Source of the DNA: Syntrophobacterales bacterium
Lineage (GTDB): Bacteria; Desulfobacterota; Syntrophorhabdia; Syntrophorhabdales; Syntrophorhabdaceae
Direction of reading: 5' to 3'
NCBI GenBank assembly: GCA_031274925.1
Contig: JAISPL010000025.1
Coordinates: 1-64,000, forward strand
DNA: 64,000 nt
Below, in pieces: positions 45,836-50,607 of this stretch. Position numbers and translations under genes: made by a program. Positions within the stretch are counted from its first letter, which is position 1; every line of letters starts with the position of its first letter. Under the pieces are notes generated by a model. That model was not told the DNA's origin, did not search any database, and was given only the letters and a program-made list of their open reading frames with translations.

Positions 45836-45927
45836 GGAGAGGTGACCGAGAGGCCGAAGGTGCTCGCCTGCTAAGCGAGTGTACGGATAAAACCGTACCC
45901 AGGGTTCAAATCCCTGCCTCTCCGCCA
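45836..45927 (+). tRNA. tRNA-Ser (anticodon GCU)
   Basis: The acceptor stem GGAGAGG (45836-45842) pairs with CCTCTCC (45917-45923), with G discriminator and an encoded CCA (45925-45927). The anticodon stem CTCGC/GCGAG encloses loop CTGCTAA with anticodon GCT at 45870-45872, reading AGC/AGU. The T-arm has GGTTCAAAT, and a long variable arm (GTACGGATAAAACCGTAC) is the class II feature of serine tRNAs. At 92 bases this is a normal tRNA-Ser. Confidence 0.97.
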
Positions 45928-46290
45928 TTAGTATTTCCGCTTGATTCAAACGGTTGATTTTTAAGTTTACTCCACCACATTAATACTACGCACGTAAGCG
46001 CACAGATGTAGCGTCCCTTAAGTTTTTCTGTCCTGTGGTGTATACTTTTAAGAAATACAGGAACAAAATAACTGTATATACTTCTATGAAGATCACGTGA
46101 TATTTATGATCAAATACTGCCGACAAATTTTTAACGGAAGAGCGCTGCACGCAAATCAAAATAATTGAAGAAAACCACTATCAAGACTACATCCTTCTGT
46201 TCATATCAATTCCACCAATTACCCCTCCCTCCCCGAAAGAATTCCAGATATTTTTGCATCCAGTATTTTGATGATTTGTGACGTTTTTTC
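45928..46290. other. AT-rich accessory stretch after tRNA-Ser
   Basis: No gene is visible. It holds repeat A. The 3-prime end of the tRNA is not seen again elsewhere in the window, so no phage-type attachment site is claimed. Confidence 0.4.
46141..46218 (+). repeat. repeat A of a pair flanking the radical-SAM island
   Basis: A 77-base segment with core CAAATC-AAATAATTGAAG, then AAAC--CTAT, then GTTCATATCAAT-CCACC, recurring at 49306-49384 in the same orientation with about three-quarters identity by eye. In one frame both copies read alike (C-x-Q-I-x-I-I-E-x-N-x-Y), so the pair may be gene fossils rather than a bare DNA repeat. Confidence 0.5.
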
Positions 46291-46319
46291 TTGACAATAT
46301 CCATATATTACCGTATACT
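46291..46319 (+). promoter_or_regulatory. consensus sigma70 promoter
   Basis: -35 TTGACA (46291-46296), exactly 17 bases, then -10 TATACT (46314-46319). It is the best promoter match I find in the window. The predicted start is about 46326. Confidence 0.7.
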
Positions 46320-46325
46320 ATATCT

Positions 46326-46643
46326 TCTTTAAATTCTTAAATAAAGGATTTAGATGAGAGCACAGCCATAATTTTTCCCTCTGCATAAAACAACAACATA
46401 ATGTTCTGTCCACGCAGCAACAGGGGGAGGTATTTTGCCCCTGAGTCTGTCTCTAAACGTGCCTCTTGGCGTCTCAAAGATGGCCTCTTCCGTTCCCATT
46501 GCTTCTGGTGATGCGGTTATCTTCCCCGCAGGAAGCGGCACCCCTATTCCAGGGGCCGCCGCTTGTTCCATGAAGGCTGGCCCCTCATTCAAGCAAACCA
46601 GCGCTTTTTTCGGAGAGACGTTCTCCATAGAAAGCGCTTTTTT
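46326..46643 (+). ncRNA. candidate structured RNA or short transcription unit
   Basis: A ~318-base unit between a consensus promoter and an intrinsic terminator. Inside are inverted repeats that can form hairpins: CAGGGG/CCCCTG at about 46421-46444, GCGG-CA-CCCCT/AGGGG-CCGC at about 46533-46559, AGGGGCC/GGCCCCT that competes with the previous one, and GCTGG/CCAGC. Open frames exist on both strands here (TTG 46435 plus; ATG 46628 minus) and neither is recognised, so a small protein is possible. It does not match the tmRNA, 6S, RNase P or SRP sequence signatures known to me. Confidence 0.35.
46600..46643 (+). terminator. intrinsic terminator of the short unit
   Basis: Arms AGCGCTTT (46600-46607) and AAAGCGCT (46631-46638) pair perfectly, with an inner GGAGA/TCTCC stem. 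They are followed by a T run ending at 46643. Confidence 0.7.
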
Positions 46644-46782
46644 ATTTATTATATATCAACGACAAGTATATGGGCACGGTCTATGGCCGGGACGATGAAT
46701 ACAGAACATTTCCCAACATTAGGGGGGCTACGATGGGGCGATGATATACTGCGGCAGCGCTTACCGCACAGTGGGAAGCGTC

Positions 46783-46846
46783 AGAGCGGGTCCTGTCACG
46801 GGTTATCGCCGCCGATGGCGTTGATACGGAGAACCGGACCCGCTCT
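46783..46846. repeat. inverted repeats upstream of the cysteine-rich gene
   Basis: Perfect 11-base arms AGAGCGGGTCC (46783-46793) and GGACCCGCTCT (46836-46846), then a second pair GGTAAAC (46868-46874) and GTTTACC (46898-46904). A frame through 46660-46865 has one stop and reads like protein (E-R-V-L-S-R-V-I-A-A-D-G-V-D-T-E-N), so this could also be a gene fragment. The remainder of 46644-46990 shows no gene. Confidence 0.35.
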
Positions 46847-47005
46847 TTCCGTTCGTATCGGGCTTAAGGTAAACTGTCCACCTTTTGCTGGCGATCTGTT
46901 TACCATTGCCCGCGAGAAAAACTGTTGTGCCTTTGGGCGATAAAGCAAGATTCATGGGAATGCAGATTCATCTAATTAAAAACTTTCAATAAAGGAGGAT
47001 GTATT

Positions 47006-47392
47006 ATGGCCGAAGTAAAAATTTCAAAAGGGCTGGCGACAGTCAGCTTAAACAAAGAAGGGGTAGTCAGCATGGTAATGGATAAAGCAGTTTTCGTTGA
47101 GGCAATAAAGAAATTTTTTTATTGTGTCCCTTGTTGTAAATTGATCAGCTGCCCCAACTTGATGAATATCTGCCCCCCTGTGTTATGTGACCATGGCTGT
47201 TTCTTCGCGAAGCCTGGTGACTGTTATCATATCGGCCTGCCAGACGGTAAAATCGTCCAGGACCAGGATAGGAATAAAATCAGCTTAAATAAAGAAGACA
47301 TGCTGGAAATGGCCAAAAGTGGGATCTTGACCCCCGAAGATTTGGCGATCATTGCTGTGGAGATTCGTGATTCGCTACTAACTCGCGGCTAA
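47006..47392 (+). CDS. cysteine-rich small protein, candidate RiPP precursor
   Basis: 128 residues after a strong AAAGGAGG seven bases upstream. Eight cysteines lie in the middle third (C40, C43, C44, C49, C56, C61, C65, C73), with prolines between them (V-P-C-C, S-C-P, I-C-P-P). The flanks are cysteine-free: residues 1-38 are amphipathic and 91-128 are acidic helical. The element S-L-N-K-E occurs in both flanks (14-18 and 93-97). No family is recognised. Its position, 81 bases before a radical SAM/SPASM gene with an attenuator-like hairpin between, suggests it is the substrate of that enzyme; nitrile hydratase-like or metal-binding leader proteins are alternatives. No signal peptide or membrane segment is present. 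Confidence 0.6.
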   Translation: MAEVKISKGLATVSLNKEGVVSMVMDKAVFVEAIKKFFYCVPCCKLISCPNLMNICPPVLCDHGCFFAKPGDCYHIGLPDGKIVQDQDRNKISLNKEDMLEMAKSGILTPEDLAIIAVEIRDSLLTRG

Positions 47393-47412
47393 CCACCTAA
47401 AAAGCAACAATC

Positions 47413-47446
47413 AGGGGCCGCGTTGGCTTTATGAAGCGCGGCCCTT
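47413..47446 (+). terminator. GC-rich attenuator-like hairpin between precursor and maturase
   Basis: GGGCCGCG (47415-47422) pairs perfectly with CGCGGCCC (47437-47444), extendable by one wobble and one A-T pair, around a 14-base loop. Only a short AT-rich tract follows. A partial terminator here would let the first gene be made in excess of the second, as is usual for RiPP precursors; that role is inference. Confidence 0.5.
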
Positions 47447-47473
47447 AATAAATATTATGAGCGGAGGCGCAAT

Positions 47474-48856
47474 TTGAGACTAAGCAGTTATCTGATCCTG
47501 TCGGATCGCTTGAAAAACGGCGGTTACGCAGCCCTGAGCGGCCTATCCGGCGCCATAGAACTAATAAGCGAGGGCCTATATCAGTTATTAGAAAAGATCA
47601 CTCTTAGCGGGGAACCCCGCTCGCTCTGCATTGAGAAAGATTCTCTCCCACCAGATATACTGGAGACTTTTATACGTCGCGGCCATATCACCGAAATAAG
47701 CCACGAAGAAGAGCGTTCTTATGTTAAAGAAGTAGCGTCAGCTCTCCATGAGATTAGCGCAGCACACCCCAATGTGGTGGTTATTCCCGATCTCGACTGC
47801 AACTACCGCTGCATTTACTGCTTTGAAAAGCCTCTTCAGTCCAAGCTGAAAGAGCGTAAGACGAAAATGGATAAAGTAGGTGTGGATAACTTCTATCGCT
47901 CAATCGACCAGCTTGCATCACAGATAGGCCCCATATCAGGGGGAATTACCCTCTATGGCGGCGAATCCCTCAGTGCGGAAAATAAAGAGGTTGTGGGGTA
48001 TATCGTAGAAAAGGGAGTAAAAAATGGACATAAATTTTTCGCTGTCACCAACGGACACGACCTGGACGCCTATTTGGGGCTTCTGGGAAGAGATAAAATC
48101 TCAAATCTGCAGATAACAATTGACGGGCCTCAAAGTATTCACGACAGGCGCCGGATTGCCTTGGACGGCAGCTCTTCTTTTCAAAAGATCATGAATAATA
48201 TAGGCCGGGCAATTAAAGAGACCGATGTGTCTATAGGGGTGCGCGTCAACCTGGACGGGGACAACTACCAGGCCTTTGGAGAGCTTTTAAGTGTTTTTGA
48301 TCAGGAAGGCTGGCTCAATGATAATAGAATATCCGTTGGTGCTGCAATCGTTGACCAGAGGGACCAGCGCGGGGCAGTGTTTCCCGTGCAGGATATAAAT
48401 AAAGTAAAAGCGGAACTGTCCGGAGTGACGGGTCAGTACCCCAATGTGGAAATCGGCAGTCAGCGGTCGTCAAGCAGAGGCAGAGTTCTATCATCGCTGG
48501 CATCAAGTAAACCCTACGGCCTCCGCAGCTCTTATTGCGCCGCCAGTAGTGGAATGTATATTTTTCTGCCTGATGGGACCATATCATCCTGTTTGGACTC
48601 TTTGGGTGAAGAATGCAGCTATATCGGCAGCTATTCGGCAGAGGGCTTGTTTCTCGACAAAGACAAAATAGCCCATAGATTCAACCGTTCCGTCGCTAAT
48701 ATACCCGCCTGCCTGGACTGCAAATATTGCCTTGTATGCGCCGGAGGATGCGCGCAGTACGCCGAATATAATTTCCATGACATCTATCCCTTATTGCGAA
48801 GATTTTCCGGAGACTTACTCCTGGGTATTGGCGGAGGCTGTAGAGAAATATCTTAA
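47474..48856 (+). CDS. radical SAM/SPASM peptide-maturase-like enzyme
   Basis: 460 residues. Residues 1-95 begin L-S-S-Y-L-I-L-S-D and resemble the peptide-recognition region found at the N-terminus of many peptide-modifying radical SAM enzymes. The radical SAM motif C-x-x-x-C-x-x-C is C109, C113, C116 (C-N-Y-R-C-I-Y-C-F), followed by Y-G-G-E-S near 161. A SPASM domain carries C355, C373, C381, C413, C416, C419, C422, C426 and C456, enough for two auxiliary Fe-S clusters. Such enzymes install thioether or carbon-carbon crosslinks in ribosomal peptides. The TTG start follows GCGGAGG by six bases. No transporter or protease gene is adjacent. Confidence 0.82.
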   Translation: MRLSSYLILSDRLKNGGYAALSGLSGAIELISEGLYQLLEKITLSGEPRSLCIEKDSLPPDILETFIRRGHITEISHEEERSYVKEVASALHEISAAHPNVVVIPDLDCNYRCIYCFEKPLQSKLKERKTKMDKVGVDNFYRSIDQLASQIGPISGGITLYGGESLSAENKEVVGYIVEKGVKNGHKFFAVTNGHDLDAYLGLLGRDKISNLQITIDGPQSIHDRRRIALDGSSSFQKIMNNIGRAIKETDVSIGVRVNLDGDNYQAFGELLSVFDQEGWLNDNRISVGAAIVDQRDQRGAVFPVQDINKVKAELSGVTGQYPNVEIGSQRSSSRGRVLSSLASSKPYGLRSSYCAASSGMYIFLPDGTISSCLDSLGEECSYIGSYSAEGLFLDKDKIAHRFNRSVANIPACLDCKYCLVCAGGCAQYAEYNFHDIYPLLRRFSGDLLLGIGGGCREIS

Positions 48857-49747
48857 GGCTAACGGTCTTTGATTTTTTGAGATTGTTTGCCGGGGAGGGG
48901 TATTTACGATAGATACATAATATGCTTGGCAGCCTACTTTGATATGAGCAATGAAAAAATCGAATGGGTAAAAAGACACATCAGGGGGCATATTGGAAAG
49001 GGGTGACATTAAAGGTCATTGGATTCCGACGTATAAGCCTGAACCAAACGACGCGGTCCATTGGTGCATAATTTTGCCACCTATATTCCACGTGTAGGGC
49101 CGACCTGATGGGTTGAATGGAATAGATTGGTAAACGGCACAGCATCCTTTAATCTTACCGATATTAGGCGATGCCTCTCTAACGCAACCTCAAGAGTCTG
49201 CCCTGCTCACGACCAACAAATTTGTGGAGACAGCGCAATCGGCAACGGTCAAAGTGAACCGGCCATCAATAGTTTGTCAACTTCTCAACTACCACCTGAC
49301 GAAGAACACTGCCTACAAATCGAAATAATTGAAGCAAACTGCTATAAAAGACCATATCCGCCGGTTCATATCAATCCCACCAAAACGGTACCCATGAATA
49401 AAATGAAACATCAGTACAAAACTTAAAAAAATCCCTTTTTCTCAAAAAAGTATAATGGAGAACAAACAATATATTTGGTGGAAAGGTTACTTTGTTTCCA
49501 CCATTGGAATAAACGAAGAAATAACAACATATATTGAACGTCAAAGGAGTGGAAAGACTTAAAGGCAAGAGAGGCTTGAACTATAGGAATACACTTAAGC
49601 GTGAGTTAGGGGTTATTTTTTGACAAAGGTTGGGGCGTAAGTGCCCAAAAATATGGCCCTTAAGAGCGAAGCGACATACATTATTGACAAAATGACGTTG
49701 GCCGTGGCAGACTGAAAGATAGGTCTATTTGGAAAATATTAATAGGG
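48857..49747. other. AT-rich accessory stretch with repeat B, no supported gene
   Basis: A 99-codon frame (49127-49426) spans repeat B, but its start and composition do not persuade. A 20-codon frame near 49652 (M-A-L-K-S-E-A-T-Y-I-I-D) is likewise unsupported. No terminator with a clear T tract follows the radical SAM gene. Low G+C compared with the neighbours suggests acquired DNA. Confidence 0.4.
49306..49384 (+). repeat. repeat B of the pair flanking the radical-SAM island
   Basis: Related to 46141-46218 in the same orientation, 3.2 kb away. In frame it reads H-C-L-Q-I-E-I-I-E-A-N-C-Y-K-R-P, similar to R-C-T-Q-I-K-I-I-E-E-N-H-Y in repeat A. The 450 bases before it share no clear match with the region before A. 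Confidence 0.5.
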
Positions 49748-50416
49748 ATGGACTTCTTGGCTGATCGTTTAACGGCGATTCAGAACTATTTTGAAAAACG
49801 GGTAAAGTGTTACCTTGAGGCCTATTCCACAAAAAGGCTTTCCAGCCTCACTGATGCGATTTACCGGTTCGGGTGGTATTCTCTGCGCTTCATTTTTCGG
49901 CGTACCATGCGCCATCTGGCAGTGATTCAACCTCAAAGTGTCCTTGACATAGGGTGTGGTTGCGGCGTCTATTCATTGGAGATTGCGAGAAGAGGAGCTA
50001 TGGTTACCGCTTTAGACATCTGTCGGGGAATGATTGATGCCACGGAAAGCCTTTTAAAACAGAATGGCCTTCAAGACCGAGTAACGACCATATGCGCGAA
50101 CTACCTTGATTGGTCCAAGGGAGTGACCCATGAATATGATTTGATTCTCGCCATCGGGCTTTTTGATTATGTGCATGATGCTGGTCATTACCTGACCTCA
50201 TTTCGGAGGATTACCAAAGGAGCTATTATTACCTTCCCTGCCGATTATGCGCTCTCATCGCTGGCCCAGCTAAGCTATCGGAGCCATGGGATTCAAGGCT
50301 ATTTCTACACTAAACAACAGATTGAGGAACTTCTGCTTTCAGCTGGTTTTAAGATAGTCCATTTTTCGAAGCTTTTTCCCGGCACTTACATGGTGCACGC
50401 GGTGTGTGCTTTGTGA
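49748..50416 (+). CDS. class I SAM-dependent methyltransferase
   Basis: 222 residues. Motif I V-L-D-I-G-C-G-C-G-V-Y-S is near 66, motif post-I V-T-A-L-D-I near 92, Y-D-L-I-L-A-I-G-L-F-D-Y near 135, and F-Y-T-K-Q-Q-I-E-E-L-L near 185. The sequence is of the Methyltransf_11/25 type; the acceptor is unknown. Eighty-nine residues precede motif I-like elements of shorter relatives less the usual helix, so the N-terminal region (F-E-K-R-V-K-C-Y-L) may contact substrate. It is monocistronic beside the accessory island. A link to the modified peptide is possible but has no evidence beyond position. Confidence 0.78.
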   Translation: MDFLADRLTAIQNYFEKRVKCYLEAYSTKRLSSLTDAIYRFGWYSLRFIFRRTMRHLAVIQPQSVLDIGCGCGVYSLEIARRGAMVTALDICRGMIDATESLLKQNGLQDRVTTICANYLDWSKGVTHEYDLILAIGLFDYVHDAGHYLTSFRRITKGAIITFPADYALSSLAQLSYRSHGIQGYFYTKQQIEELLLSAGFKIVHFSKLFPGTYMVHAVCAL

Positions 50417-50607
50417 CTCTGCTTGCCGGAATAGCATAGAGGAATGAACCTTCTCCAAGAGAGCCGGTTTTGAAAAAGCTCTCCTGAAACAATATATTCC
50501 CCAGAGACTGTATAGGTTGATACCTAGAGAATTGGGTATAGTACGGAAGTTCGGCAAGTGTGCGTAGGATCAATCATGTACTTGATAATGAATACTGGAG
50601 GTTTGAT

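Follow-up and report, generated by a model that had tools for sequence, protein, structure and literature searches.

A cysteine-rich protein and an adjacent radical SAM/SPASM enzyme form a candidate RiPP-type cassette at a tRNA-Ser/rnr insertion spot

Overview

A 128-residue cysteine-rich protein, encoded within the window analysed here (64,000 nucleotides of a contig from a Syntrophobacterales bacterium), is probably a RiPP-type substrate accompanied by its own radical SAM/SPASM maturase. This reading is based on the adjacency of the two genes on the same strand, each with its own ribosome-binding site, on radical SAM and SPASM domains that score above curated cut-offs, on the family affinities of the enzyme, whose best NCBIfam model is rSAM_vs_C_rich, and on a cysteine cluster far beyond chance. 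The strongest support comes from the nearest relatives of the maturase, which go with cysteine-rich peptides. Against it stand the lone substrate sequence, the lack of any transporter, protease or immunity gene adjoining the pair, a substrate codon use unlike that of the host, and a last SPASM cysteine that is out of frame. The original prediction had described the pair as a candidate new RiPP family. Its core, a cysteine-rich substrate with a dedicated maturase, is supported by the adjacency, the family affinities and the gene clusters of the relatives, while the "new family" amounts to one sequence.

In the scheme we propose, the 128-residue protein would be the ribosomally made substrate of the adjacent maturase, which would grip the segments flanking the cysteine core, probably by means of its own N-terminal ~100 residues. 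Through 5'-deoxyadenosyl radical chemistry and auxiliary Fe-S clusters, the enzyme would then join sulphurs of the core cysteines to nearby carbons, giving up to eight thioethers in the 34-residue core with a predicted loss of 2 Da for each. Any trimming or export of the product, as well as its biological role, we infer rather than observe.

Organization of the gene pair

The gene pair and the elements within it are as follows.

47006..47392, + strand: candidate substrate (precursor) gene, 128 aa, cysteine-rich; ATG start, AAGGAGGA ribosome-binding site upstream, eight cysteines in residues 40-73
47042..47059, + strand: flank motif copy 1, VSLNKE, residues 13-18 (SLNKE at residue 14)
47123..47224, + strand: cysteine-rich core, residues 40-73, C-x2-CC-x4-C-x6-C-x4-C-x3-C-x7-C, from the sequence and a cysteine density test
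47279..47296, + strand: flank motif copy 2, ISLNKE, residues 92-97 (SLNKE at residue 93)
47413..47446, + strand: intergenic hairpin in the substrate/maturase spacer, 12 bp stem, -26.5 kcal/mol, z -2.2, from a folding computation
47474..48856, + strand: assembled gene of the radical SAM/SPASM maturase, 460 aa from a TTG start, GGAGG upstream

The two reading frames are separated by 81 nt, in agreement with the spacing given previously, and both are open, over 128 codons in the small gene and over 430 codons of the maturase before its shifted tail. The TTG start of the maturase is backed by its three nearest relatives, whose alignments begin at the same point (MRLSSY / MRPSSY / MRASSY). In synonymous codon use, the small ORF is unlike the host and the maturase is weakly host-like. 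This fits a recent arrival of both genes, and it also leaves the case that the small ORF is coding a moderate one, with the ribosome-binding site, length and cysteine cluster in its favor and the codon use against it. The spacer hairpin is possibly an attenuator or the end of an mRNA, and could lower the expression of the maturase relative to the substrate.

A mid-chain cysteine core in a protein without detectable relatives

The eight cysteines of the small protein, at positions 40, 43, 44, 49, 56, 61, 65 and 73, fall within 34 residues, in the core (40-73) given by the original prediction, and this core lies mid-chain (residues 40-73 of 128) rather than at the C-terminus, as had also been claimed. 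Such a density, eight cysteines in 34 residues, is reached by 1 of the 107 window ORFs of at least 100 aa, namely this protein, and by 0 of 2321 ORFs of at least 100 aa in 60 control windows generated by an order-1 Markov model. The cysteine cluster is far outside chance.

No known family had been recognised for the substrate, and our searches agree. Relatives were absent from Pfam (E up to 1), NCBIfam and PDB (best PDB match E 2.3), from plasmids, viral contigs and GTDB contigs (the last by a pattern-based search), and from both the 99 nearest genomes and 395 genomes of the phylum. ORFs around related maturases, searched at maximum sensitivity, likewise contained no relative; the best E value, 0.08, was taken as chance. 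Weak matches at two further loci (L002/L003, E 0.003) were also dismissed as chance. By these searches, the protein is an ORFan, the single sequence known in the collections searched, and since no relative was found, neither covariation, nor a conserved core, nor co-occurrence with conserved cysteine spacing can be demonstrated for it. AlphaFold2 run without an alignment gave unusable models of the two proteins (mean pLDDT 44.7 and 36.4).

A small protein of this kind might instead bind metal, as a metallothionein-like or electron-transfer protein, with the nearby radical SAM gene being incidental or auxiliary. Its eight cysteines, which include CxxCC and CxxxC, would suit such a function, as would its standing as an isolated ORFan on an island; its modification is a prediction. 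The CxxCxxC ferredoxin motif is absent, however, no metal-binding family was matched in Pfam, NCBIfam or PDB, and the clade of the adjacent enzyme otherwise accompanies cysteine-rich peptides. We consider the chance of a metal-binding or electron-transfer protein to be slim.

The flanks of the cysteine core, in the RiPP-type reading, may act as leader and follower. SLNKE is the sole exact 5-mer repeat in the protein, with its copies on either side of the core; an exact 5-mer repeat, whatever its sequence, appears in 0.4% of composition shuffles. Taken by itself, this repeat suggests the hypothesis of a two-sided recognition through the (V/I)SLNKE copies. A bolder extension would make the pair a class of its own, new among RiPP or protein-stapling systems: a cross-linked core in mid-protein would be bracketed by two (V/I)SLNKE recognition motifs, the enzyme would hold its substrate on either side of that core, and the modified product would function as an intact protein. 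This we regard as distinctly unlikely.

Domains and family affinities of the maturase

The assignment of the enzyme as a radical SAM/SPASM protein held up, with Radical_SAM (PF04055) at 35.9 bits against a cut-off of 29.5 and SPASM (TIGR04085, NCBIfam) at 33.5 bits against a cut-off of 27. The radical SAM motif CX3CX2C is formed by C109, C113 and C116. The SPASM region of the assembled enzyme contains nine cysteines (355, 373, 381, 413, 416, 419, 422, 426 and 456); this count had been given correctly, but C456 belongs to a stretch read in an apparently shifted frame and does not correspond to the last cysteine conserved in SPASM domains.

At the level of individual families, the window enzyme reaches the cut-off of no NCBIfam maturase equivalog, and the small protein matches no model. 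The best equivalog is TIGR04463 (rSAM_vs_C_rich) with 119.2 bits, below its cut-off of 525 bits, followed by the geopeptide maturase model TIGR04280 (101 bits, cut-off 400), the Clo7bot (98 bits) and CefB (97 bits) models, the PapB model NF047865 (69 bits, cut-off 340), the QhpD model TIGR03906 (63 bits, E 2.1e-17) and the SCIFF maturase model TIGR03974 (55.5 bits, cut-off 425). The matches between 63 and 119 bits represent maturases of cysteine-rich, thioether-forming or otherwise modified substrates. The nearest PDB sequence is 5wgg (E 2.8e-12), an entry titled 'Radical SAM domain protein', which we take to be the SCIFF maturase CteB.

The pair can be compared with several known systems. TIGR04463 maturases have the same domain order and, at a locus of another genome (L045), a cysteine-rich partner, but the window enzyme falls outside the TIGR04463-like branch of our maturase tree. 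At that locus (L045:6148-8828), a 373-aa ORF with 23 cysteines lies 8 nt before a TIGR04463-like maturase, next to HlyD/ABC-type genes (named by eye), in contrast to the partner of 128 aa and 8 cysteines in the window. Geopeptide systems are common in the same phylum, yet their geopeptide-like partners measure about 35-45 aa, carry a CC motif and do not resemble the 128-residue protein, and the window enzyme does not belong to the geopeptide clade. Ranthipeptide systems (SCIFF/CteA-CteB and PapA-PapB/freyrasin) share with the pair a cysteine-rich substrate and a radical SAM/SPASM enzyme whose barrel is preceded by an N-terminal region. They differ in core position, as SCIFF cysteines lie within the C-terminal 45 residues (PMC8172795), and in their regular CX3D pattern, which is absent here, where thioethers are a prediction; furthermore, the window enzyme stays below the cut-offs of the PapB- and SCIFF-type models. 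Full-text searches of the papers available returned nothing on TIGR04463, on geopeptide, or on ranthipeptide together with SPASM and cysteine-rich.

QhpD staples the small subunit of quinohemoprotein amine dehydrogenase with thioethers. By analogy with this subunit, QhpC, the small protein of the window could be kept whole inside the cell, with the radical SAM enzyme stapling its core by thioethers as structural or cofactor chemistry. The QhpD substrate is a large ribosomal protein, unlike a typical leader peptide (PMC8172795). In that system, as would be the case here, the enzyme works on an intact small protein whose cysteines are internal. The mid-chain core, the long flanks, the absence of an adjoining exporter or protease and the match of the maturase to TIGR03906 all agree with this analogy. 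In contrast, seven other NCBIfam models outscore TIGR03906, the small protein has no Pfam match and hence none to the known small-subunit family, and dehydrogenase subunit genes were not found beside the pair. A search of the genome for the QHNDH domain (PF14930) gave no match, but the control gave none either, so that this search carries no weight. Taken together, a QhpC-like protein is unlikely. The pair is most likely an orphan cysteine-rich RiPP-type substrate with a SPASM maturase, a known kind of system, although its internal core and long flanks also fit a stapled protein of the QhpC type.

The nearest maturase relatives occur in cysteine-rich peptide clusters

Among 395 genomes of the phylum, three others encode a relative of the maturase above 170 bits, at 31-34% identity, and one more was found at 126 bits. 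The three (genomes G046, G085 and G120, loci L040, L041 and L043) all belong to one bacterial family, which is not that of the window. In a tree of 34 maturases, the window enzyme and these three relatives form one clade with a support of 100/96, to be read with caution as the end branch of the window enzyme is long, and are set apart from the TIGR04463-like and geopeptide-type enzymes. Like the window enzyme, the relatives begin with MRxSSY.

At each of the three loci, the maturase relative is followed by two long proteins (about 640-930 aa) and then by cysteine-rich, precursor-like peptides, encoded on the same strand at a distance of a few kb, which share the leader motif S(L/V)EELExR(L/M)E. 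From this arrangement, the clusters look like an unnamed cysteine-rich RiPP system. They differ from the window pair in the two long proteins, in a second radical SAM protein (encoded in L040 and L043), and in several precursor-like peptides with a C-terminal core; no peptide of the three clusters resembles the 128-residue protein. The two long proteins of L043 have no match in Pfam. The same locus (L043:8666-18509) also encodes a protein with a weak match to M50 peptidases.

If the RiPP-type reading is real, the pair gives the radical SAM/SPASM RiPP field an ORFan substrate whose cysteine-rich core is internal. It would also point to a deep, unnamed maturase clade present in two bacterial families, the other members of which lie in larger, multi-precursor cysteine-rich clusters. 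These clusters are a better experimental target than the window pair.

An apparent frame shift at the 3' end of the maturase gene

The C-terminal end of the assembled maturase departs from that of its relatives.

48767..48872, + strand: apparent frame shift, with a family-like C-terminal tail in the +1 frame and a stop at 48870-48872, from cysteine position and tail comparison

Every one of the 33 relatives has its last SPASM cysteine 14-17 residues beyond the CX2CX5CX3C motif; in frame 0 of the window it lies at +30 (C456). The +1 frame from about 48767, however, encodes PYCEDFPETY; in the nearest relatives, PHCFEFPRHF and PSCSEFPKHF align with it. Compared with the three nearest relatives, the +1-frame tail was equalled in score by 22 of 20000 shuffles, whereas 15409 of 20000 shuffles scored as high as the frame-0 tail, which is like random. 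These three relatives were a subset picked after the comparison averaged over all 33 had proved uninformative (306/1000, not significant); the universal cysteine position is independent of that choice. A profile of 14 relatives did not by itself reveal the frame shift, its local match stopping before the tail, and NCBIfam scans of the SPASM region with either tail did not separate the two.

The maturase as assembled is thus apparently frame-shifted near its 3' end, and C456 is probably not a cluster ligand. Because the conserved last SPASM ligand is out of frame, the copy in the assembly may be impaired, and the gene may have been recently inactivated. As judged from this one sequence, the shift may stem from a mutation, from an error in the assembly or from another cause.

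Genomic setting

The gene pair is located in an insertion of 4.6 kb (45928-50559) between tRNA-Ser(GCT) and rnr, together with a methyltransferase gene.

45836..45927, + strand: tRNA-Ser(GCT), bordering the insertion on the left; in three relatives rnr follows it directly
46137..46218, + strand: decayed remnant of an IS200-like transposase on the left side of the cassette; 80% identical to 49301-49383 over an 83-bp match
49302..49544, + strand: decayed remnant of an IS200-like (Y1_Tnp) transposase on the right side of the cassette; PF01797 at 19 bits against a cut-off of 23 bits, which it does not reach, with E 0.002 for a search of one genome; three internal stops
49748..50416, + strand: class I SAM-dependent methyltransferase, inside the insertion; PF13649, 5.8e-14

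In three relatives, the same gap measures about 80-130 nt and is empty. The substrate and close maturase relatives are absent from both congeners and from the 36 other family members searched. As the left-hand piece matches the right-hand transposase, remnants of a single IS200-like family lie on both sides of the cassette. On these genome comparisons, the tRNA-Ser(GCT)/rnr gap is a site where insertions vary, and the cassette was most likely acquired, the pair having arrived on this small island. Contamination is unlikely, since rnr and the tRNA stand on the same contig, in their expected neighborhood.

The cassette might by now be a decaying remnant, having come with an IS200-like element and since become inactive, with the C-terminus of the maturase lost and the small ORF drifting. 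The frame shift, the decayed transposase pieces on either side and the absence of the cassette from the congeners and the other family members all speak for decay. On the other hand, the remainder of the maturase and the small ORF are open, the other motifs of the radical SAM and SPASM regions are preserved, and the shift could be an assembly error. Decay is possible, if on the unlikely side; it concerns present activity and can be compatible with a RiPP origin.

Several minor features were noted around this site. In one congener (G002), the gap is occupied by other, unrelated cargo: a gene resembling a sensor kinase and a pair resembling PIN/antitoxin genes (assigned by eye). Within the window, a promoter-like TTGACA-17-TATACT (11/12) is located at 46291, 0.7 kb before the substrate gene; taken together, promoter-like sites were no more frequent than chance. 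About 300 nt past it lies a strong terminator-like hairpin (46595-46643), with no convincing ORF between the two. The segment 46291-46643 had no match in Rfam and is a possible small RNA gene. Closer to the substrate gene, at 46783-46846, a 14-bp inverted repeat (AGAGCGGGTCCTGT/ACCGGACCCGCTCT) with a 36 nt loop, followed by TTTCC, represents a possible terminator or leader structure.
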